64,000 nucleotides of DNA from Candidatus Poribacteria bacterium (GTDB lineage: Bacteria > Poribacteria > WGA-4E > WGA-3G): assembly GCA_022827885.1 (NCBI GenBank), contig JAJEIP010000007.1, positions 1 through 64,000 of the forward strand. The letters are read 5' to 3'. This document shows, one piece after another, positions 4,681 through 63,738 of this stretch. The position numbers and the translations under genes are program-made. Under the pieces are notes generated by a model. That model saw nothing but the letters and a program-made list of their open reading frames with translations. It made no database searches and had not been told where the DNA came from. Within the stretch, counting starts at the first letter, position 1; every line of letters begins with the position of its first letter.

Positions 4681-6597
4681 ATGAAAGTCAAAAGAATGTT
4701 CTTTTGCACCTTAACGCTCCTAATAGCTTCGAGCGTCGGTATTCTCCCCGGCTTCGCGCAGTATGCGGCATATACCCAATTCAGTTTACCCGAGGGTGCC
4801 ATGGCGCGTCTCGGTAAAGGTAGTGTAGGAGCGGTAACATATTCTCCGGACGGTTCAACGCTTGCCGTAGCAAGTAGTATCGGTATATGGCTGTATGGTA
4901 CCAAAACATTCCAAGAACTTGCCCTGCTCACAGGGCAGCGGGGTTGGTTCTCAAGTATAGCGTTTAATCCAGATGGTTCAACGCTTGCTACTGGAGGCGG
5001 GGATCTGGATCGGACGGTTCGTTTGTGGGATATTTCGACAGGTTCGATCAAAGCAACACTCACCGGAGGGCATTGGGGTGGGATCTATCGTATATTGTTC
5101 AGTTCGGACGGTGCAACGCTTGCCAGTAGTGGGGGTAAGAGTATAGACGATAGGGACGGAACAGCGTGTTTGTGGGACGTTTCAACGGGCACCCTCAAAT
5201 TCACACTCACCGGACATACGTACGATGTCGACATAGCGTTCAGTCCAGACGGTTCAATGCTTGCCAGTGGGGATGGATATAGGGACGGAACGGTTCGTTT
5301 GTGGGACGTTTCAACGGGCACCCTTAAAGCGAAACTCACTGGGCATACGGAATATGTTTCAAGTGTATCGTTCAGTCCGGATGGCTCTACACTTGCCAGT
5401 GGGAGCGGGGATAATACAGTTCGTTTGTGGGATGTTTCAACGGGTGTACTCAAATCCACTTTCACTGAGCATGGATTCTTGGTCGGGCGTAGGTCCCAGG
5501 TCATAAGTGTATCGTTCAGTCCAGATGGCTCTACACTTGCCGGTGGGAATTGGGACGGTAGGATTCATTTATGGGACGTTGAGACGGGTGCTGTTAAATT
5601 TACACTCACCGCGGGCAGGGCCTATAGTGTATCGTTCAGTCCAGATGGCACAATGCTTGCCAGTGGGCGTCAGGTGTGGGACGTTGCGACAGGCACTCTC
5701 AAATCCAGACTCACCGGACATACGAGCGGTGTCAATCGTATATCGTTTAGTCCAGATGGGTCTACGCTTGTCAGCGGCCATGAAGGTAATAGGGTTCGAT
5801 TGTGGGATGTTGCGACAGGCACTCTCAAATCCAGACTCATCGGACATACGGGTAGTGTATCGTTCAGTCCAGATGGGTCTACGCTTGCGAGTAGATATGA
5901 GGGGAACCAGGTTCGTTTGTGGGACGTTGCGACCGGTGCTGTCAAGGTGACGCTCACTGGACATACGGACACAATCGATAGTGTATTGTTCAGTCCAGAT
6001 GGGTCTACGCTTGCCAGTTGGAGTCCAGATGATAGGTTTCGTTTATGGGACGCTTCAACGGGCGTGCTCAAAGCGATACTCGACGGATATGGGGATTGGG
6101 TTGGATGGATATCGTTCAGTCCAGATGGGTCTACATTTGTCACTGTGAGTCGTAGTTGGGACGGTCCGGTGCGTTTATGGGATGTTGAGACCGGTGCGGT
6201 CAAAGCGACACTTGACGGGCATAGGGACCAAGTCATGAGTGTGTCCTTCAGTCCGGATGCGTCTATAATTGCCACTGGGAATGCTAATTCGTATGGCGGA
6301 ACGGTTCATTTGTGGGACGCTTCAACGGGTGCGGTCAAATCCATACTCACCGGGCATACTGGCATAATCCGGAGTGTATTATTCAGTCCGGATGGGTCTA
6401 CTCTCGTCAGTGGGAGTTCGGATAATACGATTCGTTTGTGGGATGTTGCAACAAGCACCCTCAAATCCACACTCACCGGACATACAGATGGAGTCAGGAG
6501 TATATTATTCAGTCCGGATGGGTCTACTCTCGTCAGTGGGAGTTCGGACGGAACAGTACTGTTGTGGGACATCACGCCGAAAACCCCAGAACCGTAA
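4681..6597 (+). CDS. Secreted WD40 protein with 14 repeats
   Basis: A 638-residue protein with a signal peptide (cleavage probably after GFA near residue 26) followed by about 14 WD40 units, most carrying SFSPDGSTLAS, RLWDVSTG and a closing LTGH. Fourteen blades fit two seven-bladed propellers. Such propellers are protein-interaction scaffolds with no catalysis of their own, and bacterial secreted versions are common in Planctomycetes- and Poribacteria-like genomes. The repeats are nearly identical at DNA level, so unequal recombination is likely and spurious open frames appear on the other strand. Unit 7 lacks part of its middle strand. Immediately after the stop, another frame resembles the start of a dockerin module, hinting at a lost C-terminus. 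Confidence 0.88.
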   Translation: MKVKRMFFCTLTLLIASSVGILPGFAQYAAYTQFSLPEGAMARLGKGSVGAVTYSPDGSTLAVASSIGIWLYGTKTFQELALLTGQRGWFSSIAFNPDGSTLATGGGDLDRTVRLWDISTGSIKATLTGGHWGGIYRILFSSDGATLASSGGKSIDDRDGTACLWDVSTGTLKFTLTGHTYDVDIAFSPDGSMLASGDGYRDGTVRLWDVSTGTLKAKLTGHTEYVSSVSFSPDGSTLASGSGDNTVRLWDVSTGVLKSTFTEHGFLVGRRSQVISVSFSPDGSTLAGGNWDGRIHLWDVETGAVKFTLTAGRAYSVSFSPDGTMLASGRQVWDVATGTLKSRLTGHTSGVNRISFSPDGSTLVSGHEGNRVRLWDVATGTLKSRLIGHTGSVSFSPDGSTLASRYEGNQVRLWDVATGAVKVTLTGHTDTIDSVLFSPDGSTLASWSPDDRFRLWDASTGVLKAILDGYGDWVGWISFSPDGSTFVTVSRSWDGPVRLWDVETGAVKATLDGHRDQVMSVSFSPDASIIATGNANSYGGTVHLWDASTGAVKSILTGHTGIIRSVLFSPDGSTLVSGSSDNTIRLWDVATSTLKSTLTGHTDGVRSILFSPDGSTLVSGSSDGTVLLWDITPKTPEP

Positions 6598-55578: not shown

Positions 55579-57774
55579 ATGCCAAAATCCCCCGCATTGA
55601 ACCGCAAGGAAAAATTAAAATTCTTTTTGGTTTTTCTGTTGTTTGTGGGTTGTTCTCAACACCGGACACCTGTGGAACAGCAGGCTTCATTTCACTTTGA
55701 ACCTCCCCCTTATACCCGGCATCTTAAAGGTTTCAAAATTTGCTTGGACCCCGGACACGGCGGACAAGCACACGTCCCCGATTACAAACGGGGTCCCACA
55801 GGCGTTCGCGAAGCCGAGGCGAATCTACGGGTCGCACTTTATCTACGCGAGATGTTACAGAAAGTCGGGGTTACCGTCATTATGACGCGCGTTGACGATT
55901 CCTATGTGAGTCTGTCGAGGCGCAGTGAAATAGCCAACGAAAATGGTGCCGACTTCTTTATCTCGCTGCACCATAACGGGATCGATAATCCGAAAGTTAA
56001 CTACACCTCTACTTGGTATCATGGCGATGCGGATGACTCACGCCAGAGTCTTGACCTTGCTCGGTATGTCCAGCAGGGTGTCTCAGACGCACTCCAATTG
56101 CCCACTTCTCCTGCATCGGGACTTTACTCGGATAAATTAATAACGACTTCCGGTTTTGGGGTCCTGCGATTGACAGAATGTCCAGCGGTGTTATGTGAGG
56201 CATCTTTTCTCTCGAACCCAGAAGAAGAAGCAAGATTGCAGGAGGACGACTACCTGAGAAGGGAAGCCTACGGCTACTTTCTTGGGATTGCCCGTTATGT
56301 TGAAGGCGGGTTTCCGAAAGGTGTGCTGGTCGAGCCGCAACATGCCGCCGTCATCCAAGCGAAAACGCCGCGCCTCCAGATCCAGGTTATGGACGGACTC
56401 CACGAGCGGGGGGCGTGGATGCTCAAACGTCAACAGGTCTTCACGGACTCCATCCGCGTCAAGATTGATAATGTGGATGTTCCGTATCACTACGACCGCG
56501 GGACAGATCTGATTACTGTCTGTCTTGATAAACCCTTATCGAACGGTGTGCATCTTGTCCAGACGGACTTAGTGAACTATTATGGGAATCACAGTCTCCC
56601 CGCGCCGCAATGGTTTAAGGTGGCACCGCCTGCTGCGGTATTGGACCTCACGGCGTGGACAGATACCCTCCCTGCTGATGGAAAAAGTTACGTCGGTATC
56701 TCTGTAACTGCACGGGACAGTGAAGGGATGCCAATTGCTGACGACGAGCCGATCTACGCACAAACATCAAACGGGACGCTCGCAGCGGATCGTCGACTCT
56801 CAAAGAACGGTTCAGCACAGTTTTATCTATATGCGCCTGATGCGCCGGGCACAGCCACGGTGGAGGTCTCATATCAACAGACCCGTCAGTCGTTGACGAT
56901 TCACTTCGCGAACATTGATGGCGCGATTGTGCAAGGTCAAGTTTCTCACAACCTTCCGAACAGCCATCCCATCGAACCGCAAGGGAAAAATAAAAAACCG
57001 CTCCAAGACGTGCGATTAGAAACCGATTCAGGATTGACAGCAATTACGGATACCGAAGGACACTTTTTCATCACAACAGGCTCTGAATTTAAGGATTTCG
57101 GCGAAACAACGCTCCACATCTCTAAGGCAGGTTATTACCCGGACCAACGCAGGATTCACATTCAACCGAATCAAGCAACAGTTACCGATGTCGAACTTCA
57201 TCCGATTGCAGACGGTGCGTTTGCCGCTACTGTCATCGTTCTCGATTCAAAAACGGATACGCCTGAGACCCAAGAACTTCTCACAACGTTGGAAAAGATG
57301 TTGAAACTTGCTGGGGCAAAGGTTTATAATATTTATACTGCGGGGTCAAAAATGTCTGTGGAAAAACGGATAGAGAGGGTTAACGCCATCAAGGATAGCG
57401 GATACTATTTGCAAATCAATCACGGAGAATGGCGTAAAGCACATCCTGCTGTGGTTGCGGCACACTACCGAGGCAATCAGGGGACAGAGACCTTTCTCAA
57501 GCGGATACTTGAACAGTTCAATGGGAGTCTCTATGAGACCCCGATTGTTACCCTTCAAGACAGAACGACCCCTGAAATTCAGCAGACGAATAAGATGGCG
57601 ATGACCCTTGAAATCAAATCTTTGGATCATCCGAAGGCTTCCGTCGTTTCGGAAGGGCATGCGATTTTTTTCGGGGCATGGACTTTCCTGAAGGGCGCTG
57701 GCGAAATTCCGATAGAAAGCCAAAAGCGGTTTATGGTGTACTTAAAAGAGAGGCAAGCGAATTCTTCTCATTAG
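55579..57774 (+). CDS. N-acetylmuramoyl-L-alanine amidase lipoprotein (Amidase_3) with degenerate second amidase-like domain
   Basis: 731 residues. Lipoprotein signal ending LLFVGC25. The Amidase_3 domain (about 50-255) has zinc ligands H60 (DPGHGG), E78 (GVREAEA) and H131 (ISLHHNG) and the catalytic E207 (VLCEASFLSN). It cleaves the bond between muramic acid and the stem peptide. Beta-rich linkers follow (about 275-470, Ig-like) and a carboxypeptidase-regulatory-type module (475-550). The last 170 residues repeat the amidase order without its zinc ligands (YYLQINHGEW and TLEIKSLDHPK). Start by GGAAAGG. The dipeptide epimerase is the next gene. Confidence 0.87.
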   Translation: MPKSPALNRKEKLKFFLVFLLFVGCSQHRTPVEQQASFHFEPPPYTRHLKGFKICLDPGHGGQAHVPDYKRGPTGVREAEANLRVALYLREMLQKVGVTVIMTRVDDSYVSLSRRSEIANENGADFFISLHHNGIDNPKVNYTSTWYHGDADDSRQSLDLARYVQQGVSDALQLPTSPASGLYSDKLITTSGFGVLRLTECPAVLCEASFLSNPEEEARLQEDDYLRREAYGYFLGIARYVEGGFPKGVLVEPQHAAVIQAKTPRLQIQVMDGLHERGAWMLKRQQVFTDSIRVKIDNVDVPYHYDRGTDLITVCLDKPLSNGVHLVQTDLVNYYGNHSLPAPQWFKVAPPAAVLDLTAWTDTLPADGKSYVGISVTARDSEGMPIADDEPIYAQTSNGTLAADRRLSKNGSAQFYLYAPDAPGTATVEVSYQQTRQSLTIHFANIDGAIVQGQVSHNLPNSHPIEPQGKNKKPLQDVRLETDSGLTAITDTEGHFFITTGSEFKDFGETTLHISKAGYYPDQRRIHIQPNQATVTDVELHPIADGAFAATVIVLDSKTDTPETQELLTTLEKMLKLAGAKVYNIYTAGSKMSVEKRIERVNAIKDSGYYLQINHGEWRKAHPAVVAAHYRGNQGTETFLKRILEQFNGSLYETPIVTLQDRTTPEIQQTNKMAMTLEIKSLDHPKASVVSEGHAIFFGAWTFLKGAGEIPIESQKRFMVYLKERQANSSH

Positions 57775-57779
57775 ACAAA

Positions 57780-58054
57780 GACCGAATCGGGGTTACAAAC
57801 CCCTCCCACCCTAACGGAAATTAGAAACATGAACGACCGAAAGAATCGGGGTTACAAACCCCTCCCACCCTAACGGAAAGTAAAAAATGAACGATAGAAA
57901 GAATCGGGGTTACAAACCCCTCCCACTCTAACGGAAATTAGAAACATGAACGACCGAAAGAATCGGGGTTACAAACCCCTCCCACTATAACATTAGACAA
58001 AGACCGAAAGAATCGGGGTTACAAACCCCTCCCACTATAACAGAAATTAGAAAC
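57780..58054 (+). repeat. Tandem array of five hairpin-leader units with micro-ORFs
   Basis: Five copies of a unit containing the hairpin core GGGGTTACAAACCCC then TCCCAC, starting at 57785, 57844, 57902, 57961 and 58011 (spacing 59, 58, 59, 50). Between them, the leader GGAAATTAGAAAC is followed by ATGAAC, exactly as at the real start of the epimerase gene. Three units thus encode 14-residue frames: 57829-57873 and 57887-57931 and 57946-57990, reading MNDRKNRGYKPLPP or ending LPL. The hairpins could also act on transcription or mRNA stability. Confidence 0.85.
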
Positions 58055-59053
58055 ATGAACATTGTCTCTCAGATCACAGATTTACAACTCCAGCATCCCT
58101 TCAAGATTGCGCGTCGTGCGACAGACGCGTTCCGACAGGTGATTTCTGTAGAGATTGATGGTGGCATCGGTGAAGCGGCGCCCGCTCGGTTGTATGGTGA
58201 AACCGTTCAGACGGTGCGTGTCGCGTTAGAAATTATCGCGCCGGCACTGCCCAAAGACCTCGATGCAATCCACGATGTAATGGAAACAGTTGACGCGACG
58301 CTCGGCGGCAATTACGCAGCGAAGTCCGCCATTGATATGGCACTCCATGATCGACTCGGTAAAAAACTCGGTGTTCCGCTCTATCAACTCTGGGGGCTCA
58401 ATCCGAAGAAGACCCCTTGCACATCGTTTACGATCGGACTGGATGCACCGGAGGTAATGGCAGAGAAGACGCGACATGCTGAAGCGTATCCGATCCTGAA
58501 AGTCAAACTCGGCACGCCGCAGGATATTGAGATAATTCAGAAACTCCGCGAGGTCACGGATAAACCTATCTATGTGGATGCGAATACAGCGTGGACCCCG
58601 AAGGAGGCTGTTCGTAAGATCCGTGAGCTTGCCGGTTATGGTGTTGAATTGATAGAACAACCGACGAAACCGAATGATCTGGCAGGACTCAAGTTTATCC
58701 GCGAACACTCTGAACTGCCGATTATCGCCGATGAAAGCGTCAAGCGCGCAAGTGATATTCCGATTCTCGCTGCGTGTGTTGATGGTATCAATATCAAACT
58801 CGTCAAATGCGGTGGACTGCTTGAGGCACACCGAATGATAAGTGTTGCGCGCGCCCACGGTTTGCTGGTCATGATTGGTTGCATGATAGAGAGTTCGCTC
58901 GGCATCACCGCCGCTGCACACTTGACCCCCCTCGTAGACTATGCCGATCTGGACGGTCATCTGCTCATTGCAAACGATCCCTACACGGGTGTAAGTCTTG
59001 ATAAGAGTAAATTGATACTACCAAACCGCCCTGGCATCGGGGTTACTTACTAA
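58055..59053 (+). CDS. Dipeptide epimerase (enolase superfamily)
   Basis: 332 residues of the muconate-lactonising-enzyme subgroup. The acid/base lysines are in ILKVKLG (K-x-K) and NIKLVKCGG. The metal ligands are in YVDANTAW, LIEQPT and IIADESV, and CMIESSLG is the capping segment typical of L-Ala-D/L-Glu and related epimerases. These invert the second residue of dipeptides released from peptidoglycan, which fits the amidase gene immediately upstream. ATGAAC start follows the leader shared with the micro-ORF array. Confidence 0.85.
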   Translation: MNIVSQITDLQLQHPFKIARRATDAFRQVISVEIDGGIGEAAPARLYGETVQTVRVALEIIAPALPKDLDAIHDVMETVDATLGGNYAAKSAIDMALHDRLGKKLGVPLYQLWGLNPKKTPCTSFTIGLDAPEVMAEKTRHAEAYPILKVKLGTPQDIEIIQKLREVTDKPIYVDANTAWTPKEAVRKIRELAGYGVELIEQPTKPNDLAGLKFIREHSELPIIADESVKRASDIPILAACVDGINIKLVKCGGLLEAHRMISVARAHGLLVMIGCMIESSLGITAAAHLTPLVDYADLDGHLLIANDPYTGVSLDKSKLILPNRPGIGVTY

Positions 59054-62337: not shown

Positions 62338-63738
62338 TCATTGGCGAAACGGTTTTCCCAGTTGCGTCTGCATGAGTCTTTCTAAAATTTGCAGGCGCAA
62401 CGCCGTTTCAACGTCCGCAACTTCAGGTCTACCAGCGAGGTTCTGTATCTCATTCGGGTCGTTTTGGACATTAAATAAGAGGTAAACTTCGCCATCTGCG
62501 TTGAGAGCCGCCTTCCACTCCCGATTTAGGAGCATAATCTCACCCTCTATTTCCGAAATTGCGAAGTCGCGATGTGTCGCTTCAGGTTGCGTCAACACTG
62601 GACACAACGATTTCCCGAATTGACGATGTTCCAATTGACCGCCCACCAATTCAACAAGCGTTGGACCGATGTCGAGCCATTCCACTGGACTCTCACAAAT
62701 TGTTCCTGTGGGAGGGGTTTGTAACCCCGATGTATCAGGCGTTCGGACGAGTAGCGGGATCCGAACGGCACCGTTGAGGAAGTTGCTCTTATAGATGAGT
62801 CCATAGTCTCCGTTCATTTCACCGTGGTCGGAGGTGTGGACAATGATTGTGTTTTCGAGTTCACCGCGTGCCGCGATTGTGTCGAGAATCTCTCCGATCT
62901 GATCATCAATGAGCGTTACGTTGCCGGCGTAATTCGCTCGGAGCCTTCCGATTTCACCGGCCTCAAACGTCGGGTTCACGCGCTGCATGAGCCCGTCCAA
63001 ATGTCCAGTGGGACGTTTTTCCGTAAATGGACGCGGGATCGCTGGTGGCATGTTGGCAGGGTCGTACATACTGGCATAAGGTTCAGGCGTATCCCAGGGT
63101 TCATGCGGTCCCCCGAAACTCACCCAACAGCACCACGGTTCCTCCCGTTCATAGTTCTGGAGGTATTGCTTCGCTTGTTGTCCGACGTAGACATCGGCGT
63201 AGTCTTCAAACCCAAGCGTCGAAGAACGGACGAGATGCGGTTTCGTGCTGAACCGTTCGCGATAATCGGCGCGGTAGCCCTCCCATACCCCCTTTTCTTC
63301 CCACATAGCCGTCATGTGGGACAGCACTTTCGCGCTTGCCCGCGGTCCACCGATTTCGTTCACATCGTCCAATCCATAAGCGTTCATTAAGCCTTCGCGT
63401 TCGCGCAGATCGCCGCTGTGCGGATGGAGGTGCGTTTTACCGAAGAGGCTCGTCCGATACCCAGCATCGCGCACGGCTTGCATCCATGTCGGTGTTTCAG
63501 CAGGCATCTGGTGATTCATATTGTTCCAGACGTGGGTGTTATGCGGATATAAACCTGTCGCCAGACTGAGTCGCGTCGGGATACAGACGGGTGATGTGGT
63601 GACACAGTTCGTGAATCGGACACCTTCACTGGCAATCCGATCCAAATGTGGGGTCTGGACCCAATCACCACTGCAACTCATCGCGTCCCAACGCTGTTGG
63701 TCTGTCATGAGCAAAAGGATGTTCGGGGTGGTTTCCAT
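62338..63738 (-). CDS. Type I sulfatase (alkaline-phosphatase superfamily)
   Basis: 466 residues. The N-terminal NILLLMTDQQRWDAM supplies the calcium-binding Asp, and C52-I-P-T-R56 is the sulfatase signature in which Cys becomes formylglycine. FGKTHLHPH and VHTSDHGEMNG are the further active-site strands. No signal peptide, so it may act in the cytoplasm, on imported sulfated sugars. Around residues 336-344 the chain TSGLQTPPT is encoded by a copy of the 24-base palindromic repeat of the 57.8-kb array, inserted in frame. It begins two bases after the stop of the upstream gene. Confidence 0.9.
   Translation of the reverse strand: METTPNILLLMTDQQRWDAMSCSGDWVQTPHLDRIASEGVRFTNCVTTSPVCIPTRLSLATGLYPHNTHVWNNMNHQMPAETPTWMQAVRDAGYRTSLFGKTHLHPHSGDLREREGLMNAYGLDDVNEIGGPRASAKVLSHMTAMWEEKGVWEGYRADYRERFSTKPHLVRSSTLGFEDYADVYVGQQAKQYLQNYEREEPWCCWVSFGGPHEPWDTPEPYASMYDPANMPPAIPRPFTEKRPTGHLDGLMQRVNPTFEAGEIGRLRANYAGNVTLIDDQIGEILDTIAARGELENTIIVHTSDHGEMNGDYGLIYKSNFLNGAVRIPLLVRTPDTSGLQTPPTGTICESPVEWLDIGPTLVELVGGQLEHRQFGKSLCPVLTQPEATHRDFAISEIEGEIMLLNREWKAALNADGEVYLLFNVQNDPNEIQNLAGRPEVADVETALRLQILERLMQTQLGKPFRQ

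Follow-up and report, generated by a model that had tools for sequence, protein, structure and literature searches.

A five-hairpin array separates two cell-wall genes, an amidase gene and a dipeptide-epimerase-like gene, in the 64,000-nucleotide stretch of Candidatus Poribacteria DNA analysed here (the window). It is very probably the product of a GTAG-type repetitive extragenic palindrome (REP), spread by a REP-associated tyrosine transposase (RAYT), that inserted at this site and expanded in tandem together with its flanks. The three short open reading frames (micro-ORFs) within it would then be incidental, and the array itself fast-changing and probably near-neutral.

The sequence CGGGGTTACAAACCCC is present between the two genes (table 1) in five exact copies, at 57788, 57847, 57905, 57964 and 58014, with identical 15-nt hairpins (spanning 57789–58029), against a mean of 0.01 matches in window shuffles with two mismatches allowed. 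Steps from hairpin to hairpin are 59, 58, 59 and 50 nt, TRF describes 57784–58060 as a repeat of period 59 with 4.9 copies, and the units are distinguished by substitutions and small indels. The hairpin array of the original prediction is thus borne out, as are its three micro-ORFs, each of exactly 14 codons with an ATG start. The hairpins had also been described as alternating with copies of the epimerase leader and ATGAAC, each spare start opening a frame through the next hairpin. The alternation holds for spacers 1–3, but spacer 4 repeats the amidase 3′ end CATTAGACAAAGACCGAA, whose other copy is at 57769–57786; the read-through holds for hairpins 2–4, but hairpins 1 and 5 lie in no micro-ORF. 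The gene names given earlier stand, that of the amidase by Amidase_3 and that of the epimerase by the closest solved structures, which belong to the enolase superfamily: 3iji (muconate cycloisomerase), 3jva and 1jpm (dipeptide/L-Ala-D/L-Glu epimerase). Elsewhere in the window, at 5675–6569, tandem repeats of 117–126 nt resemble WD40-type coding repeats.

Table 1. Features of the array, its flanking genes and related REP and RAYT sequences. Positions are those of the window unless a locus is named.
Feature	Position	Strand	Description
N-acetylmuramoyl-L-alanine amidase gene (Amidase_3)	55579..57774	+	3′ end is the source of the units' 5′ part
REP copy 1	57787..57809	+	TCGGGGTTACAAACCCCTCCCAC; GTGG-tagged reading on minus strand; 13 nt past amidase stop codon
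Spacer 1	57810..57845	+	epimerase leader + ATGAAC copy, fused to amidase 3′ flank copy (GACCGAAAGAA)
Micro-ORF 1	57829-57873	+	ATG start, 14 codons, MNDRKNRGYKPLPP then stop
REP copy 2	57846..57868	+	within micro-ORF 1
Spacer 2	57869..57903	+	leader copy, variant (GGAAAGTAAAAAATGAAC), fused to amidase 3′ flank copy
Micro-ORF 2	57887-57931	+	ATG start, 14 codons, MNDRKNRGYKPLPL then stop
REP copy 3	57904..57926	+	within micro-ORF 2
Spacer 3	57927..57962	+	leader + ATGAAC copy, fused to amidase 3′ flank copy
Micro-ORF 3	57946-57990	+	ATG start, 14 codons, MNDRKNRGYKPLPL then stop; peptide identical to micro-ORF 2
REP copy 4	57963..57985	+	within micro-ORF 3
Spacer 4	57986..58012	+	no leader; amidase gene end copied (CATTAGACAAAGACCGAAAGAA); sole spacer type common to sister species G008
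REP copy 5	58013..58035	+	19 nt upstream of epimerase start codon
Dipeptide-epimerase-like gene (MR_MLE family)	58055..59053	+	leader + ATGAAC is the source of the units' 3′ part
Sixth REP copy in window	62708..62730	-	outside array; inside sulfatase gene 62338-63738 (-), in-frame reading SGLQTPPT
RAYT gene	L088 1683-2213, L092 1333-1863	+	NF047646 match; REP at 3′ end

The hairpin is dispersed well beyond this locus. A 22-mer with one mismatch allowed has 79 copies in the window's genome and 130 in that of the sister species, and a wider hairpin pattern is present in 38 of 38 genomes of the genus; the 22-mer had no match in eight genomes from other families of the order. Over independent loci a core of approximately 25 bp, (A)TCGGGGTTACAAACCCCTCCCACA, is conserved, and the flanks are unrelated and fall to background information content. 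Read on the opposite strand (TGTGGGAGGGGTTTGTAACCCCGAT), the core consists of the tag GTGG, the extra bases GA, a 6-bp stem, a 3-nt loop and a 3-nt tail. The tag is GTGG in the window's genome and GTAG in many relatives. On both strands the stem of 6 bp and loop of 3 nt are within the ranges for GTAG-type REPs (5–13 bp and 2–20 nt, respectively; PMC3733652). Given this unpaired tag, these palindrome dimensions, the many dispersed copies with unrelated flanks and a REP-flanked RAYT gene, the hairpin is best explained as a GTAG-type REP, tagged GTGG here, of a Candidatus Poribacteria genus. A known structured RNA family was rejected, as Rfam covariance models gave no match at gathering threshold within the window. 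The sulfatase gene that holds the sixth copy has a parallel in relative G003 (L007), where a sulfatase-like context also flanks a REP.

The RAYT of the window's genome is a 177-codon open frame that matches NF047646 with 133 bits (cut-off 80). Its C-terminal codons, SGLETPPT, are the REP hairpin itself, so transposase and element share sequence, and four further REPs lie downstream of the RAYT gene in G008. This RAYT probably mobilises the REP. A strict link between REP copy number and RAYT was nevertheless rejected: it is broken by genome G045, which has 143 REP copies, yet no close relative of the window-genome RAYT was found there, and copy number is therefore not explained by this RAYT alone. 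On the complete chromosome of G045, REP orientation falls into long runs (8 among 41 clusters; as few in 0 of 100,000 shuffles), and 31 of the 41 clusters point the way expected if replication from dnaA at 4.98 Mb sets their orientation (p 0.0015). Such a pattern would be in keeping with insertion at forks into single-stranded DNA. GC skew over 20 samples of G045 was too noisy for placing replichores.

How the units form can be read from arrays at other loci. In a survey of 40 stretches of genomes G000 and G008, the majority with arrays, many spacers join a stretch of the local 3′ flank to one of the local 5′ flank, the pattern left by tandem duplication of flank, REP and flank. Spacers resemble each other within an array (mean score 0.51) far more than between loci (0.16), although only about half of them match their own flanks above the 99% control level. 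Neighbouring REPs within 300 bp are direct in 58 cases and inverted in none. Inside open frames, 27 of 34 steps have a length divisible by three, versus 12 of 45 outside (Fisher p 4e-6, steps in one array being non-independent), which suggests that unit length is constrained by the reading frame within genes and by little outside them. The hairpins are invariant and the spacers variable, for which selection could be an alternative cause. At L120 (G000:C131) a REP array of two copies contains a duplicate of a long ORF's start region (MEWKMKTFGTYG...), so that at least one further gene start has been duplicated by a REP array.

The amidase is the upstream neighbour in 45 of 56 epimerase loci and abuts or overlaps the epimerase gene in 21 of these 45, for which reason the gap between the two genes looks like a derived state. 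Epimerase leaders in the outgroup read CGCAAGGAAAAGTAAAAAAATG, and the REP would occupy the place of their AAGG part. From this we infer that a REP copy inserted between the two genes, adjoining the ribosome-binding site of the epimerase. Tandem duplications, whether by recombination, slippage or RAYT strand transfer, would then have copied the REP along with neighbouring parts of the amidase 3′ flank and of the epimerase leader with ATGAAC, and the micro-ORFs would have arisen because the unit being duplicated included the epimerase start. Other short hairpin repeats (e.g. GTAGGAGCGCAATTTATTGCGC) are found in the same intergenic region upstream of the epimerase in other relatives (L177, L190, L199 and others), and several REP-like families seem to have landed there repeatedly.

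In the sister species, whose epimerase DNA is 95% identical, the locus has four hairpins with steps of 55, 50 and 55 nt and lacks the spare ATGAAC copies. Its spacers differ from those of the window except for the amidase-flank type, whose duplication is therefore probably older than the split, the others being lineage-specific. Among 12 orthologous array loci, not one keeps both unit number and unit length, and the array is absent from more distant orthologous regions: 53 of approximately 54 further regions that precede epimerase genes in Poribacteria lack a related hairpin, and L199 has a single one. The micro-ORFs are likewise absent from G008 and the other orthologous regions. They are neither conserved nor mutually independent, being copies of one event. 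Neutral tandem expansion, which the original prediction had offered as its second option, gains support from the dispersed REP, from the copying of flanks elsewhere and from the variation in units between two close species. The comparison of unit number in relatives that it had proposed as a check found such variation, part of what it had listed as counting against a regulatory role, along with the absence of the spare ATGAAC from G008.

The first option was a cis-regulatory leader, in which ribosomes start at the spare ATGs and translate through the hairpins, tuning the epimerase relative to the amidase. We consider this unlikely. The micro-ORF ATGs do have an upstream CGGA, kept in the copied leaders and lost from the true epimerase leader, with a duplex of −3.5 kcal/mol versus −0.1 for the true start; the abutting or overlapping genes of relatives would also suit such a role, as would a 54-codon ORF in G008 that spans the greater part of the gap and stops 4 nt short of the epimerase ATG (a length rare in shuffles, 0.2–0.75%, assessed post hoc). 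Against it, the micro-ORFs are missing from the sister species, their peptides are not conserved and all three were copied from a single event; loci differ freely in unit number and length; and no micro-ORF covers hairpins 1 and 5. Nor is the array RNA more stable than shuffles (z −1.09), and a special fold of the whole array was rejected on this basis. Beyond the anatomy of the array, there is no positive support for the regulatory option. A related reading is similarly improbable: by capturing gene starts, REP arrays would fill the untranslated gap between two genes of coupled ancestry with successive short ORFs, and each species would build its own translational relay. The relay would consist of three 14-codon ORFs here and of an extended amidase plus the 54-codon bridging ORF in the sister, and expression would shift whenever an array gained or lost units. 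In that case, new translational coupling could originate from REP expansion.

We searched the coding strand of the array for terminators and promoters and found neither; terminator-like sites are on the minus strand only. This bears on a further reading, that the REPs act as 3′ hairpins on the amidase transcript (mRNA stabilisation, blocking of ribosomes or RNases) and that the array is kept for that purpose. REP 1 does sit 13 nt past the amidase stop, and most REPs are located 3′ of coding regions, where they may be transcribed (PMC3733652). We nonetheless regard this as very unlikely, given the lack of a terminator-like site on the coding strand, the many REP copies within open frames and the rarity of the hairpin upstream of other Poribacteria epimerase genes, where L199 alone has even one. 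The first G008 hairpin, moreover, lies in the amidase reading frame. There (L229, approximately 1283–1342) the codon matching the amidase stop TAG is CAG, so the frame runs 16 codons further into hairpin 1.

Tandem units can be miscounted by short-read assemblies, and the window's genome is a draft of 148 contigs, in which a repeat might have been collapsed or expanded. An assembly artefact is nevertheless extremely improbable: the units carry distinct substitutions and small indels, the sister genome, a separate assembly, has an array at this site too, and the single-contig G045 also has closely spaced head-to-tail copies. A RAYT-spread REP that expanded together with its flanks remains our preferred explanation, and it carries a caution. 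Repeats of a start codon beside hairpins can be REP by-products, and a test of conservation is needed before they are read as regulatory.

Several known systems resemble the array in part. Leader-peptide or uORF attenuators also combine short ORFs and hairpins upstream of an enzyme gene, but this array has no conserved peptide and is not conserved in the sister; an attenuator was rejected because the relatives have no conserved short ORF and the coding strand has no intrinsic terminator. Literature searches on REPs and translation returned nothing useful, and those for REPs in Poribacteria nothing on point. REPINs and BIMEs (PMC3116915, PMC8266576) share the REP units, the RAYT link and tandem clusters that include flanking sequence, and REPINs are reiterated together with flanking DNA (PMC3116915). 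Their units, however, comprise two inverted REPs, whereas those of Poribacteria are single and in one orientation (58 to 0), and identity with them was rejected for want of inverted neighbours within 300 bp. The NF047646 match, a gene for a tyrosine HUH transposase that has REPs at the 3′ end, recalls the RAYT/TnpA-REP REPtron (PMC2817692, PMC8266576), with the difference that here the REP itself supplies the final codons of the RAYT gene; RAYT action on the REP is putative here. The closest counterpart is the GTAG-tagged REP, in particular the GTAG-1 layout of GTGG/GTAG tag, GA, 6-bp stem, 3-nt loop and 3-nt tail (Di Nocera et al. 2013, PMC3733652). Those elements, too, have tens to hundreds of dispersed copies, reiterated clusters that include flanks, some copies in genes and a link to RAYTs. 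Poribacteria is not among the phyla named there, its tag is mostly GTGG in the two richest close relatives, and its REP neighbours are only head-to-tail, whereas head–tail dimers are absent or rare in most genomes of that survey, by which an exclusive head-to-tail layout is unusual. The reiteration of REPs with flanking DNA is thus already published, while the literature searched seems to contain no description of the Poribacteria family or of its purely head-to-tail layout. Candidatus Poribacteria joins the organisms with a RAYT–REP system, as one in which REP singlets expand only head-to-tail, carrying gene starts and pieces of coding sequence with them.
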